From the NCBI GenBank assembly GCA_028685755.1, contig JAQUDJ010000006.1:19959-83958 (forward strand): a DNA stretch of 64,000 bases, read 5' to 3'. This document shows, piece by piece, positions 18,828 to 28,599 of this stretch; the stretch's first letter is position 1, and the number at the start of each line of letters is the position of its first letter. This DNA comes from Eubacteriales bacterium. GTDB taxonomy: Bacteria > Bacillota > Clostridia > Saccharofermentanales > UBA5734. The translations under genes and the position numbers were made by a program. The notes below the pieces were generated by a model, which saw nothing but the letters and a program-made list of their open reading frames with translations, was not told the DNA's origin and searched no databases.

Positions 18828-20276
18828 TCAATATTCGACTTTTTGTGATCCGAGAATGACGGCGCCAGATTCGGGGTCCGGTGCTTTGCCCGTTGTGAGG
18901 TATTCATCGATTGCGGTTGCTGCGGATTTGCCAGCGCCCATCGCGAGAATTACCGTCGCTGCCCCCGTGACGGCATCGCCACCGGCATAAACGCCAGCTT
19001 TGCTTGTTGCCATGGTGTGATCATCGACAACAATACCACCCCATTTTTGGGTTTCGAGACCTGGTGTCGTCATTTTAATGAGTGGATTGGGCGTTTGCCC
19101 GATCGCGACAATGACGGTATCCATGGGCAATTCAAAGCGTGAATCTTGCTTTTCAACGGGGCGGCGGCGACCTGAACTATCTGGTTCACCGAGTTCCATT
19201 TCAACGCATGCCATGCCGGTGACCCAGCCCTTTTCATCGCCTAAGATTTCGACAGGATTGGTTAAGAGCTTTAAGATGATGCCTTCTTCTTTGGCATGGT
19301 GGACTTCTTCTAACCGCGCTGGCAATTCGTGTTCAGAGCGACGATACACAATATACACGTCTTCGGCGCCGAGGCGTTTGGCACTGCGGGCAGCATCCAT
19401 GGCAACGTTGCCACCACCAATGACGGCGCAGCGTTTACCAACGTGAATCGGCGTGTCCCAATCTGGGAATTTGTAAGCTTTCATCAGATTGATGCGGGTC
19501 AAAAACTCATTGGCGGAGTAAACGCCGTTAAAGTTCTCGCCGGGAATTTTCATAAAACTTGGTAAGCCGGCTCCCGTACCAATGAAAATCGCTTCATAGC
19601 CTTCGTCATAGAGCTCATCGAGGGTCAGAATTTTGCCGATAACCATGTTCGTCTCGATTTTGACACCAAGTTTGCGCAAATTGTCGATTTCTGATTGGAC
19701 GAGCGCTTTGGGCAGCCGGAATTCAGGGATGCCATACATTAAAACGCCACCGGGGACGTGAAACGCTTCGAAAATGGTCACATCATATCCAAGTTTGGCG
19801 AGATCGCTCGCACAGGTCAGACCAGCAGGACCGGAGCCAACAATGGCAACCTTGCGGTGTTTTGCCGGTGCAACTTCAGCCTTCTGTTGCCGGTTGGCCA
19901 TGTACCAATCGGCGACGAAACGTTCAAGGCGGCCAATGCCGACTGATTCGCCCTTGATCGCTCGCACACAGAGTTCTTCGCACTGGGTTTCTTGCGGGCA
20001 AACGCGGCCACAGATGGCCGGCATGGCGTTTGTAGAGGTGATTATGTCATAAGCGGCTTCAAATTCACCGACTGCGACTTTGCCGATAAATTCGGGGATT
20101 CGAACATTGACTGGGCAGCCGGCAATGCAAGGCTTGTGTTTGCATTGCAGGCAGCGCGTAGCTTCTTCCATGGCCATCTCGGGGGTATAGCCGATTGAGA
20201 CTTCGGCAAAATTCTTGTTGCGGGCATTAGGATCTTGTTCCGGGATGGCTACTTTTTTTAAAGACATATTGGCCAT
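18828..20276 (-). CDS. nfnB: NADPH-dependent glutamate synthase small-chain-like / NfnB subunit
   Basis: CLQCKHKPCIAGCPVNVRIPEFI Fe-S region, GSGPAGLTCASDLAKLGYDVTIFE; adjacent NfnA. Confidence 0.88.
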   Translation of the reverse strand: MANMSLKKVAIPEQDPNARNKNFAEVSIGYTPEMAMEEATRCLQCKHKPCIAGCPVNVRIPEFIGKVAVGEFEAAYDIITSTNAMPAICGRVCPQETQCEELCVRAIKGESVGIGRLERFVADWYMANRQQKAEVAPAKHRKVAIVGSGPAGLTCASDLAKLGYDVTIFEAFHVPGGVLMYGIPEFRLPKALVQSEIDNLRKLGVKIETNMVIGKILTLDELYDEGYEAIFIGTGAGLPSFMKIPGENFNGVYSANEFLTRINLMKAYKFPDWDTPIHVGKRCAVIGGGNVAMDAARSAKRLGAEDVYIVYRRSEHELPARLEEVHHAKEEGIILKLLTNPVEILGDEKGWVTGMACVEMELGEPDSSGRRRPVEKQDSRFELPMDTVIVAIGQTPNPLIKMTTPGLETQKWGGIVVDDHTMATSKAGVYAGGDAVTGAATVILAMGAGKSAATAIDEYLTTGKAPDPESGAVILGSQKVEY

Positions 20277-20279
20277 GGT

Positions 20280-21122
20280 TCAGGCCTCCTTGCCGGTTAA
20301 ACGGCAGATATGAACTGCTTCGGACTGCTTTTCTTCAGCTTTATAGATCTGGCTGCGGCGCATTGCTTCGTCGAAATTGACGAGGTGACCGTCAAAGTCT
20401 GGTCCGTCGATGCATGCAAATTTGGTTTCGCCACCTACGGTCAGTCGGCATCCGCCGCACATGCCTGTCCCATCTACCATGATCGAGTTCATGCTGACGA
20501 TCGTATGAATGTTATATTCTTTCGTCACGTTGCAGATCATTTTCATCATGATCAACGGGCCAATTGCAATAACGAGATCATAATCGCGGCCTTCTAGTAT
20601 CTTTTCACGCAAAACATCGGTGACGAAGCCTTGGCGGACATAGGAGCCATCGTCTGTTGTGATGAAAAGGTTCGTGCAGGCGACTTTCATGTCGTCCTCG
20701 AGGATCACGAGGTCCTTGTTGCGAAATCCCGCGATTATGTCAACTTCAGCACCAAGCTGATGGAGCGCTTTTGCCTGAGGATAAGCGATCGCTGTGCCAA
20801 GCCCGCCTCCAATAACAGCGACTTTTTTGTAGCCTTCAAGATGGGACGCTGTGCCAAGTGGGCCGACGAAATCGAGTAATTCATCACCTTCATCCATTTC
20901 GGCAAGCGCTTTGGTCGTTTTGCCGACAAGTTGGAAAATGATCGCTATCGTGCCCTGTTCGCGGTCATAGTCGGCGATCGTCAGTGGTACACGTTCGCCG
21001 GCCTCGTCGATTCGAAGCATGATGAATTGGCCGGGTTTGGCCTTGCGCGCGATGAGCGGTGCAGCGACATCCAAGCGGGTGACGGTCGGATTCAGGATCT
21101 GTTTGTGGACGATTTTATACAC
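20280..21122 (-). CDS. nfnA: Sulfide/dihydroorotate dehydrogenase-like FAD/NAD-binding protein / NfnA subunit
   Basis: FAD and NAD domains, C-terminal GTGMCGGCRLTVGGETKFACIDGPDFDGHLVNF; GTG start at 21122 preceded by GGGGAGG. Confidence 0.88.
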   Translation of the reverse strand: MYKIVHKQILNPTVTRLDVAAPLIARKAKPGQFIMLRIDEAGERVPLTIADYDREQGTIAIIFQLVGKTTKALAEMDEGDELLDFVGPLGTASHLEGYKKVAVIGGGLGTAIAYPQAKALHQLGAEVDIIAGFRNKDLVILEDDMKVACTNLFITTDDGSYVRQGFVTDVLREKILEGRDYDLVIAIGPLIMMKMICNVTKEYNIHTIVSMNSIMVDGTGMCGGCRLTVGGETKFACIDGPDFDGHLVNFDEAMRRSQIYKAEEKQSEAVHICRLTGKEA

Positions 21123-21386
21123 GAAACTGCCTCCCCAATTATGGTACGGGCAGTCGGTCAAGAAGCCGAAACAACCCCATTGCATCTATTATACGCTCAG
21201 ACGTTCGGCCTGCAATGTAATTTCAGCTACAAAACCTGATCAAAATCTGCTGATGTTAAAATCATTTTTGGTAACGTTACTGCTACTTTTAGGGTAGTTA
21301 AGGACTATAATGAATATATTAAAGTAATAAATAAAGCAACCGGTCGAACATTATAACGTTGACCAATTTCCAAAGGAGGCCATTCC

Positions 21387-21911
21387 ATGAAAGAACCCCT
21401 GTCTCGTGCTTTTAGTGCACAAATCAATAAAGAATATTTCAGCGCCTTTTTCTATCTCGTTATGTCAGATTATTTAGACGCTATTGGCTTTAAAGGTGCA
21501 GCTAGTTGGACTTATGTTCAATACCAAGAAGAGTTGGCTCATGCCCAGAACCTTGTGCACTATCTGCACGCTCGCAATGAAAATGTAAAATATATGACAA
21601 TTGCTGATCCGAGTGGCGAATGGAACGGCATCAAGGATGTCTTTTTGTCCATTCTTAAGCATGAAGAATCGGTGACTGAATCGATTAGTGAACTCGCAAC
21701 ACTCGCGATGCAATCTGGTGATCACGCAGCTTATACGTTCCTACATTGGTACATTGCTGAACAAGTCGAAGAGGAAGGCAATGTGCAAGATGTCATCGAC
21801 AAACTACAGATCGCCGAAGACAATCAAAATGCTTTGCTGACCATTGATAATCTCCTGGGGGCTCGAGTCTATGTCGAACCGATCGTACCAGGGGTTGGCA
21901 CCTCAATCTAA
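21387..21911 (+). CDS. Ferritin
   Basis: INKEYFSAFFYLVMSDYL, YQEELAHAQ, EQVEEEGNV di-iron ligands; AAAGGAGG RBS. Confidence 0.93.
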   Translation: MKEPLSRAFSAQINKEYFSAFFYLVMSDYLDAIGFKGAASWTYVQYQEELAHAQNLVHYLHARNENVKYMTIADPSGEWNGIKDVFLSILKHEESVTESISELATLAMQSGDHAAYTFLHWYIAEQVEEEGNVQDVIDKLQIAEDNQNALLTIDNLLGARVYVEPIVPGVGTSI

Positions 21912-21947: not shown

Positions 21948-21980
21948 GATCGCATCCGTTTGTACGGGTGCGATCTTTTT
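21948..21980 (+). terminator. Rho-independent terminator downstream of ferritin
   Basis: GATCGCATCCG-TTTGTA-CGGGTGCGATC followed by TTTTT. Confidence 0.85.
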
Positions 21981-22125
21981 AAATAGAAGCCTTTTCTGCA
22001 ACTCTTCTTCTCATTTCCTGCAAGAATCAAATTCAGCGCACTGCGCTTTTGCGAAAATAATTGATTTGCACAAGTATTGTGTGCAAATTTCAGCAAAGTT
22101 TGTTCAGTTTAAAAATGAAATTTTG

Positions 22126-22170
22126 ACTTTTTCGACTTGCACAAATAATGATCTATGGTAAGATGGTTTC
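22126..22170 (+). promoter_or_regulatory. Candidate sigma70-type promoter for the glutamine synthetase leader
   Basis: TTGCAC - 16 bp - TAAGAT just upstream of the leader. Confidence 0.4.
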
Positions 22171-22187
22171 ATCAAATGAATAGTGAC

Positions 22188-22301
22188 GGCTGTGGATACT
22201 GTATTTAACTCGATTCAGCCAAGATAAACAAGGGTGTTTATTAGTCTCCTCGGAGATTATTTGGCGCCCTATTTTTTATTTTGTGGACATTACTGAATCG
22301 A
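22188..22301 (+). promoter_or_regulatory. Attenuator-like leader upstream of type III glutamine synthetase
   Basis: Stem GGGTGT (22232-22237)/GCGCCC (22264-22269) with inner TCTC/GAGA hairpin, followed by TATTTTTTATTTT; GGCTG/CAGCC and TCGATTCAG/CTGAATCGA alternative pairings; terminator lies before the gene. Confidence 0.6.
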
Positions 22302-22365: not shown

Positions 22366-24477
22366 ATGAGCAACACTGACACGACATCCATCAATATGGC
22401 TGAGATTTTTGGCAGCAATGTCTTTAATGATTCAGTCATGCGCACCGTCCTACCGAAAGCGATTTACAAATCGCTGCGCAAAACAATCGAAGACGGCATC
22501 TCTCTTGACGCCCAGGTCGCCGAAGTCGTCGCCTCCGCGATGAAGGATTGGGCGATTGCTAAAGGCGCAACCCACTTCACCCACTGGTTCCAGCCCATGA
22601 CCGGTGTCACCGCTGAAAAGCATGATTCCTTTATTTCGCCAACACCAGATGGCCGCGTCATCCTTGAATTCTCCGGCAAAGAATTGATCAAAGGCGAACC
22701 GGACGCATCTTCTTTTCCATCAGGTGGTTTGCGTGCAACTTTCGAAGCACGTGGTTATACAGCTTGGGACTGCACATCACCGGCTTTCGTCAAAGACGGC
22801 AGCTTATTCATCCCAACCGCTTTTGCTTCCTACACCGGCGAAGCCCTCGACAAAAAGACCCCCTTACTGCGCTCAATGGATGCGATCAATCGTCAGGCCA
22901 TGCGCGTTTTAAAACTCATTGGCAACACATCGACCTCCCGCGTGGTAACGACTGTCGGACCGGAACAAGAATACTTCCTGATCGATCAGAAGTTATTTGA
23001 AGAACGTAAAGACTTGATACTGACTGGTCGCACCCTGTTTGGTGCAAAACCACCAAAGGGTCAGGATCTCGAAGATCATTATTTTGGTCAGATCAAGGAC
23101 CGGATCGCTGCTTACATGACCGATCTCGATATCGAACTGTGGAAGCTCGGCGTATCTGCCAAAACCAAACACAACGAAGTTGCTCCGGCACAGCACGAAC
23201 TAGCCCCGATCTTCACCACCACCAATATTGCAACTGACCACAATCAGCTGACGATGGAAACGATGAAAAAAGTCGCGTTGCGTCATGGGTTGGTTTGCTT
23301 ACTCCATGAAAAGCCGTTTGCTGGTGTCAATGGTTCTGGTAAACACAACAACTGGTCAATGGGAACCGATGATGGTCAGAACTTGCTTGAACCAGGCAAA
23401 ACCCCGCATGACAACACCCAGTTCCTCCTCATCCTTTCTGCGGTCATCCGCGCCGTCGACGTCTACGCCGATCTGCTCCGCGTTTCAGCTGCTAGCCCGG
23501 GCAATGACCACCGTCTCGGCGCCAATGAAGCACCGCCAGCAATCATCTCGATCTTCCTCGGTGATCAGCTCACCGATATCCTCGAACAAATCGAAAAGAG
23601 TGGCAATGCCCTGACCAGCAAATCTGGCGGGTTCCTTGAGCTCGGCACAGCTTCCCTGCCTTCCCTTCCCAAAGACTCCACTGACCGCAACCGCACATCA
23701 CCTTTTGCCTTCACTGGCAACAAGTTTGAATTCCGCATGGTCGGTTCATCCCAGTCGATCGCACAATGCAACTTTACCCTCAACACTGCAGTCGCAGAAA
23801 TTCTGTGTGAAATTGCCGATCGTCTCGAAAAAGCAAGCGATATCGACGCCGAAATCAGCGCGATCATTCTTGAAATCATCAAAAATCACAAACGAGTCAT
23901 CTTTAATGGTAACGGCTACTCTAGCGAGTGGGTCGAAGAAGCAGCCCGTCGCGGTCTGCCAAACATCACCACAACGGTCGATGCAATCGCCGCGATCAAT
24001 GCCGAGAAAAACAAAGCCCTTATGGCCAAACACGGCGTTCTGTCCTACATCGAAATGGAATCTCGTACCGAAATCCAGTACGAAATCTACACCAAGACGA
24101 TCAACATCGAAGGACTAACCGCTGTCGAAATCGCCAAACGTCAGATTCTACCTGCTGTCATCAACTACAAAGCTGACCTCGCTTCCTCCATCGGCGCAAT
24201 CGAGTCCATTGACGGTGATGTCTCGGTCGAAAAAGAACTCTTTAGTAAAGTAAACATTTCCATGAAGTCCCTGAGCGCCAACATCGCCAAGCTCGAAAAA
24301 GCGATCGATACCGCAGCCAATTTGCATGGCGACACCAAGGCACAAGCAGAGGCCTATCGCGACCTCGTCTTCAAAGCCATGGGCGAAGTCCGTGCCGATG
24401 CTGACCTGCTTGAAACCATCGTCGACGCCGATTATTGGCCACTACCGACTTACTCCGACCTGCTGTTCAAAGTCTGA
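22366..24477 (+). CDS. glnN: Glutamine synthetase type III
   Basis: 709-aa [44 protein letters not shown] motifs of GSIII; start ATG at 22366 with GGAAGGGG RBS. Confidence 0.93.
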
Positions 24478-27348: not shown

Positions 27349-28599
27349 ATGAAAAAGCATAACATAGTTCGGTTCAAAATCCGTAGAAAACCACACCACA
27401 GCTTTTCTCGAGCGTTTTCTTTTTTATTGCTTATACTTATGACAATTATGACGCTACAGCAGTCGATCCAAGCTGCAGTGCTACCATTACCAACTCCAAT
27501 CGAAGTCGAAGTCGTCACTCAATACGACACACCCATGCCTGTGGGTTTAACAGTTGATCTGCGTTACAGCAACTATACAATTGACAAGGATTATGTTCTG
27601 ATCACAGCCTGGAACGCCAACATACGCCAGCAACCTGATGGAAACAGTATGAAAGTTGGCAAAGCTGCCCGCCATGAAAAACTCCAAGCGATCGCCTTGG
27701 TGCGGGGGAAATATTCGAGCAGCTATCAAACTGATCTGTGGTTTGAGGTGGTCAAACAACAAGGCAACTTAGCAATTCATGGCTATATTCTCGCATCACT
27801 TGCCGAATATCGCCAATTTCAGTTCCAGAAAATGGTCGATGCCTACACGATGCTTAAAAGCGAAGTTGATCAAAATCAGACTGCCTATATTGCCAATTAT
27901 AAAAATCGCAGTGGTATTGCGCCAATGCGCCACGGTCAAATTGTTGATGCTTTTGGTGTAAAGCGCTATCAATCTGCGCCAGCGTACTTTTCAGAATCAC
28001 CAAGTAGCGATTTTCGTTATCTGCCAGATGGAACATTGCTCACGTTCGTCGGAGAAACAGAGCAATTTTATCGCGTGCGGACCTTTCTCTTCGATTACGA
28101 CGTTTTTGTTCCTAAAAAATACGTTTCACTGAAAAACTCAATCGAACAATTGACTCAAGTCATCGTTGTTGATCGCAAAAACCAAAACGAAGGCGTTTTT
28201 GAATATGCGAATGGTCAGTGGTCTATGATCTCATTTAGTTACGCAACAACCGGTGAGAATGCGCGGTACAAGGAACCCACTCCCCTAGGATTTTACATGG
28301 CTATTGAACGAGCCAGCAAATTCATCTATCTCGACGATGTTACACGGCTCATTGCCGGGTATGCACCATACGCTATACGATTCTCCGGTGGTTCATATCT
28401 CCACGGCGTCCCAGTCGATTTTGCGCCCGGGCAAGTTGTCGATAATCGCATCCTCGCCTGGGCTCCGATGCGTGAATACCTCTCCACAATTGGCACAGTC
28501 CCACGCTCTCACAAATGCGTGCGCAACTACACTAGCCACGCTAAATTCCTCTACGATTGGGTCATACCGGGAAAGGCCTCGATTATTATAATTGAGTGA
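27349..28599 (+). CDS. Secreted L,D-transpeptidase (YkuD-like) with SH3-like N-terminal region
   Basis: Signal/TM segment, SGGSYLHGVPVDF and TVPRSHKCVRNYTSHAKFLYDW active-site region. Confidence 0.8.
   Translation: MKKHNIVRFKIRRKPHHSFSRAFSFLLLILMTIMTLQQSIQAAVLPLPTPIEVEVVTQYDTPMPVGLTVDLRYSNYTIDKDYVLITAWNANIRQQPDGNSMKVGKAARHEKLQAIALVRGKYSSSYQTDLWFEVVKQQGNLAIHGYILASLAEYRQFQFQKMVDAYTMLKSEVDQNQTAYIANYKNRSGIAPMRHGQIVDAFGVKRYQSAPAYFSESPSSDFRYLPDGTLLTFVGETEQFYRVRTFLFDYDVFVPKKYVSLKNSIEQLTQVIVVDRKNQNEGVFEYANGQWSMISFSYATTGENARYKEPTPLGFYMAIERASKFIYLDDVTRLIAGYAPYAIRFSGGSYLHGVPVDFAPGQVVDNRILAWAPMREYLSTIGTVPRSHKCVRNYTSHAKFLYDWVIPGKASIIIIE

Follow-up and report, generated by a model that had tools for sequence, protein, structure and literature searches.

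A probable ANTAR-type attenuator with a single hexaloop in the leader of a clostridial type III glutamine synthetase gene

Introduction

The leader of glnN in the window (the whole 64,000-nt stretch of clostridial DNA analysed here) can be folded in several ways that exclude each other, which raises the question of what the leader responds to. An earlier note, made from the sequence alone, offered a riboswitch or a protein-controlled attenuator as possible answers and mentioned ANTAR antiterminators as a lead.

PMC3369931 places ANTAR elements upstream of glutamine synthase genes, describes ANTAR targets as having two hexaloops, and reports that deletion of the first hairpin, P1, lowers the induction by EutV. 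In the crystal structure of EutV, the dimer touches one hexaloop, and Tyr164 stacks on the loop base G4 (PMC8934654). As the protein contacts were confined to one hexaloop, Walshe et al. redefined the minimal binding motif as a single one, although they maintained that in vivo both hexaloops are required (PMC8934654). In Clostridium saccharobutylicum, NitR, an ANTAR protein encoded in the glnA region, induces GS/GOGAT genes under nitrogen limitation (Stutz 2007, as cited in PMC6316151). For dual-hexaloop targets, we used the description of Ramesh 2012, that is, a P2 hairpin with A1 and G4 in the loop and a stem of at least 3 pairs, an upstream P1 hexaloop separated from it by a linker of 5–12 nt and needed for induction, overlap of P2 with the 5′ arm of an intrinsic terminator, an ANTAR protein in the genome, and a nitrogen gene downstream.

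Results

Structure of the glnN leader

The gene downstream of the leader encodes type III glutamine synthetase, as had been claimed, since it matches the GSIII_N domain (Table 1). Its likely start, read from the sequence, is the ATG at 22366 with the Shine–Dalgarno sequence GGAAGGGG in front. With this start, the distance from the terminator given in the earlier note is about right. The putative promoter makes a 5′ end of the RNA near 22171 plausible, and the same TTGCA...TAxxxT layout precedes P2 in three other members of the genus (leaders L002, L003, and L132).

Table 1. Features of the glnN locus, in positions of the window
Feature	Positions	Strand	Basis and remarks
Predicted promoter, TTGCAC-16 nt-TAAGAT	22137..22164	+	by eye from sequence
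Upstream hairpin GGCTG...CAGCC	22188..22220	+	fold; in the P1 place of ANTAR targets, not an R1/G4 hexaloop
Outer 9-bp helix TCGATTCAG/CTGAATCGA	22210..22301	+	3′ arm past the U tract; not conserved, probably incidental
Predicted P2 antiterminator hairpin GATAAAC[AAGGGT]GTTTATT	22223..22242	+	hexaloop with A1 (22230) and G4 (22233), 7 pairs; conservation, covariation, shuffles
Intrinsic terminator	22231..22283	+	stem 22231-22238/22263-22270; inner stem 22242-22248/22253-22259; U-rich tract 22270-22283
glnN, type III glutamine synthetase, regulated gene	22366..24477	+	PF12437 (GSIII_N) E 7e-81, PF18318, PF00120

The terminator stem with a T-rich tract noticed earlier is indeed present. Bases 22231-22238 pair with 22263-22270, directly followed by the U-rich tract TATTTTTTATTTT, and the fold is far beyond chance (−20.9 kcal/mol, z = −5.1, equalled by 0 of 200 shuffles).

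All strings quoted in the earlier note are in place (GGCTG at 22188-22192, TCGATTCAG at 22210-22218, CAGCC at 22216-22220, and CTGAATCGA at 22293-22301). However, the switch built on them, with the outer TCGATTCAG/CTGAATCGA helix competing against GGCTG/CAGCC, is not a conserved pair in the genus. The 9-bp outer helix is uncommon by chance (17 of 1000 shuffles), but in L002, L003, and L132 the pairing is not kept, and only a 5-nt chance complementarity is seen there. Moreover, its 3′ arm lies downstream of the U tract, so RNA polymerase reaches it only once termination has been decided. We have therefore ruled out the outer helix as the switch; it is probably incidental. The conserved exclusive pair, overlooked in the earlier note, is the hexaloop hairpin 22223-22242 versus the terminator arm 22231-22238. 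The latter bases are common to both structures: the loop and the 3′ strand of P2 serve as the terminator's 5′ arm, so that P2 and the terminator are mutually exclusive.

Several other features were seen around the locus. A perfect palindrome, TTTGCACA-AGTATTG-TGTGCAAA, is situated at 22064-22088, just 5′ of the glnN promoter, and occurs only once in the genome in this exact form; it may serve as an operator, or as a terminator for the minus strand. Further upstream, a ferritin gene (21387-21911) has a terminator to itself at 21948-21975, ahead of the glnN promoter. The minus-strand neighbours at 18828-21185 resemble the two subunits of a ferredoxin-dependent NADP oxidoreductase (Nfn/GltA-like).

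Recurrence of the hexaloop hairpin in GSIII leaders

We sampled loci of type III glutamine synthetase (GSIII) from relatives and from 80 GTDB genomes, and scanned 103 leaders, requiring an RANGRY hexaloop, at least 4 stem pairs, and overlap with a terminator 5′ arm. This strict scan found P2 over a terminator in 44 leaders, whereas ten dinucleotide shuffles gave 0.2 on average and the reverse strand gave 4. Alkalibacter mobilis (leader L082) is one of the relatives with this layout. When loops were picked without any requirement for a stem, 34 of 51 had at least 4 flanking pairs, as opposed to 0–5 when the loop was slid by 1–3 bases. In addition, the P2 stem covaries. Among 41 P2 sequences, including those from glnA leaders, covariation was 0.579 versus 0.267 after shuffling and 0.085–0.221 in slid controls, with 39 versus 13 doubly changed cells. 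The slid-loop test is the cleaner of the two, because the sequences used for covariation had been selected for stems. Comparison of the relatives' leaders, proposed in the earlier note as a check, thus gave covariation in P2 and none of the conservation expected for the outer helix.

Leaders often hold terminators, and others are called nearby, so the glnN terminator might be constitutive and unregulated, with the hexaloop being incidental. Against this, the P2 stem covaries and the loop is held to RANGRY in 44 leaders where 0.2 are expected; we regard a constitutive terminator as very unlikely.

In genera g3 and g7 (leaders L005, L009, L010, and L011), the P2 loop begins with G rather than A (GAAGGT, GAAGAC, GATGGC). 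Leaders L103 and L112 carry the module of P2 plus terminator twice in succession before glnN.

Association with ANTAR genes

Of 81 leaders not scored as ANTAR-lacking, 43 have P2, compared with one of 22 scored as lacking (Fisher p = 1.9e-5); this p-value is only indicative, as the species are related and thus phylogenetically non-independent, and several genomes are incomplete, the absence of an ANTAR gene from an incomplete MAG being weak evidence. The lone P2-bearing genome in which no ANTAR gene was found, G013, is assembled in 450 contigs. Of the leaders not scored as ANTAR-lacking, 38 had no P2 call, some of them being operon-internal. Among 20 P2-positive genomes sampled, 15 have the ANTAR gene next to glnA and one more has it next to glnN.

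This association also bears on whether the leader could be a metabolite riboswitch, in which glutamine or ammonium would stabilise P2 or the outer helix. Competing structures upstream of a nitrogen gene are what such a riboswitch would look like. However, the occurrence of the element goes with that of an ANTAR protein, and its conserved part is a hairpin of 16–20 nt, below the size of known aptamers. The Rfam search that had been suggested returned no matches at gathering thresholds in the 64 kb, and below the thresholds only eukaryotic or unrelated chance hits with E from 1 to 7. A riboswitch is scarcely credible on these grounds, and of the two options of the earlier note only the protein-controlled attenuator stands. 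The ANTAR lead itself gains support from the P2 hexaloop, its overlap with the terminator, the ANTAR gene in the genome, and the recurrence among relatives.

Search for the second hexaloop

To this point, the leader agrees with the description of Ramesh 2012: it has the P2 hexaloop overlapping the terminator 5′ arm and a nitrogen-metabolism gene downstream, and the genome encodes an ANTAR protein. The P1 hexaloop of that description was not found in the window's glnN leader, and in the 44 leaders its frequency does not exceed chance. We scanned for A1/G4 and R1/G4 hexaloops with 3 or 4 pairs. In the window, there is no R1/G4 hexaloop with at least 3 pairs between 22161 and P2. Within 50 nt upstream of P2, P1-like hexaloops were found in 7 of 44 leaders, with 6.5 expected from shuffling, i.e., at chance level. 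As a positive control, the scan detected an 8-bp P1 before a eut gene of genome G052, a single case with a non-canonical loop; the glnA leader of the same genome has P2 alone.

Furthermore, in 11 leaders with near-consensus promoters (L074, L075, L088, L105, L111, L112, L113, L117, L118, L125, and L127), P2 begins 2–11 nt past the predicted transcription start, so P1 cannot fit there. Automatic promoter calls are unreliable for TTGCA-type −35 boxes, that of the window's own leader among them, and for this reason the argument from the 5′ end uses only leaders with near-consensus promoters.

One may still suppose that the leader is a dual-hexaloop target with a diverged P1, the GGCTG/CAGCC hairpin with its non-canonical loop playing this role. 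A hairpin is predicted at the P1 position in the window, L002, L003, and L132, and EutV needs P1 in vivo according to PMC3369931. On the other hand, the upstream hairpins share neither sequence nor loop, the 11 leaders listed above have no room for P1, and P1-like hexaloops occur at the chance level although the scan detects the 8-bp one in G052. We consider a diverged P1 unlikely. Since P1 was looked for and not found, we do not file the glnN leader under dual-hexaloop ANTAR targets; it fits a single-hexaloop variant. The shape of the RNA corresponds to the minimal site of Walshe 2022, a single A1/G4 hexaloop, as judged from sequence.

The ANTAR protein of the genome

The window's genome encodes one ANTAR protein (PF03861, 56 bits with a cut-off of 27.3), located in the glnA operon between glnA and the gene for diaminopimelate epimerase. 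The protein (L151:1687-2277, minus strand) has 196 aa, and the ANTAR domain is its sole domain match; in particular, the domain profile search yielded no Response_reg match. The nearest solved relative is EutV (E 0.012). Unlike a EutV-type two-component regulator, it has no receiver domain with a phospho-acceptor aspartate, the aligned column being occupied by proline. The aspartate is also missing from this column in 20 of 21 aligned ANTAR proteins from P2-bearing genomes. In G052, by contrast, the eut-associated ANTAR protein retains it, together with a clear receiver domain. As the phospho-acceptor is absent, the signal is probably not transmitted to the ANTAR protein by phosphorylation, as in AmiR. 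From the gene order, we would guess that glutamine synthetase is its partner.

The position of EutV Tyr164 is occupied by histidine in 18 of the 21 aligned proteins, as counted from the alignment; ANTAR proteins of genus g7 have tryptophan where others have histidine. Four other genomes of the window's genus (G001–G004; L033 and L035–L037) additionally encode an ANTAR protein of another kind, which is missing from the window's genome.

The same element at other ammonium genes

In the window's genome, P2 with a terminator also precedes the glnA-ANTAR operon (GAGC[AAAGGT]GCTC, approximately 10 nt past the predicted start). The ammonium transporter gene amtB is preceded by a tandem of P2-type elements: its leader (L142, 1455-1600; G000:C29:8418-8520) contains a pair of hexaloop hairpins separated by 46 nt. 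A terminator is called for the second and, by eye, one seems to follow the first as well, an arrangement of tandem attenuators. The string AACRANGRYGTT has 15 matches genome-wide, of which just the glnN and amtB sites are accompanied by a terminator. Matches to the GC-closed pattern are mostly coding, and the site examined was the one at glnA. A hexaloop-like string at 28185 (AAACGAAGGCGTTT) was rejected, being inside a coding sequence with no terminator call.

In other genomes, P2 with a terminator is found before glnA (G034, G003, G010, G006, and G052) and, where an asnA-glnN operon exists, before asnA (G009 and G008). The common element suggests that glnN, the glnA-ANTAR operon, and amtB form one ammonium-assimilation regulon.

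Discussion

Taken together, the sequence data indicate that the glnN leader is very probably an ANTAR-type transcription attenuator using a single hexaloop. The default fold of the nascent RNA would be the terminator (22231-22270 and the U tract), and transcription would end ahead of glnN. Under nitrogen limitation, the one ANTAR protein of the genome, a product of the glnA operon whose receiver-like N-terminus lacks the phospho-acceptor aspartate, would bind and hold the P2 hairpin 22223-22242. This would lock away the 5′ arm of the terminator and let RNA polymerase enter glnN. In this scheme we infer that the protein binds, in which direction it acts, and that nitrogen limitation is the signal. 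The glnN gene, the glnA-ANTAR operon, and amtB would thereby be placed together under common ammonium-assimilation control.

We lean slightly towards a broader reading, in which this leader represents a widespread clostridial subclass of single-hexaloop ANTAR attenuators, often located right at the 5′ end of the mRNA and served by glnA-linked proteins without the phospho-acceptor and mostly with histidine at the Tyr164 position. In the literature searched, this variant is apparently undescribed, though the supplement of PMC3369931 or the original report on NitR may list cases with a single hairpin. If the reading is correct, the P1 hexaloop is no general requirement for ANTAR antitermination, and the signal reaches the ANTAR protein without phosphorylation, perhaps via glutamine synthetase itself. 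With natural targets of this single-hexaloop kind before glnN, glnA, and amtB, the need for the second hairpin becomes directly testable. Such targets could also account for the control of the main ammonium-assimilating enzymes in many gut and rumen Clostridia.

Among the known systems, AmiR of Pseudomonas aeruginosa, a pseudo-receiver protein, is similar in having a receiver-like N-terminus without the phospho-acceptor, and by this likeness a partner or ligand probably signals to the ANTAR protein described here. Unlike the situation with AmiR, no AmiC-like gene adjoins the ANTAR gene of the window's genome.

The dual-hexaloop targets, represented by the eut leaders of E. faecalis with EutV, nasF of Klebsiella with NasR, and ami of Pseudomonas with AmiR, share with the glnN leader an A1/G4 hexaloop on a short stem, its position over the terminator 5′ arm, the location before nitrogen genes, and an ANTAR protein encoded in the same genome. 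They differ in that the glnN leader has no P1 and that the transcripts of many relatives start almost directly with P2. In addition, in some of the genera studied here the loop may begin with G (GAAGGT, GATGGC).

A further parallel is with NitR of C. saccharobutylicum (as cited in PMC6316151), compared here at the level of the genes. Unlike for NitR, the targets here include type III glutamine synthetase (glnN) and amtB. Both systems have the ANTAR gene in the glnA operon, ammonium-assimilation genes as targets, and a proposed antitermination under nitrogen limitation.
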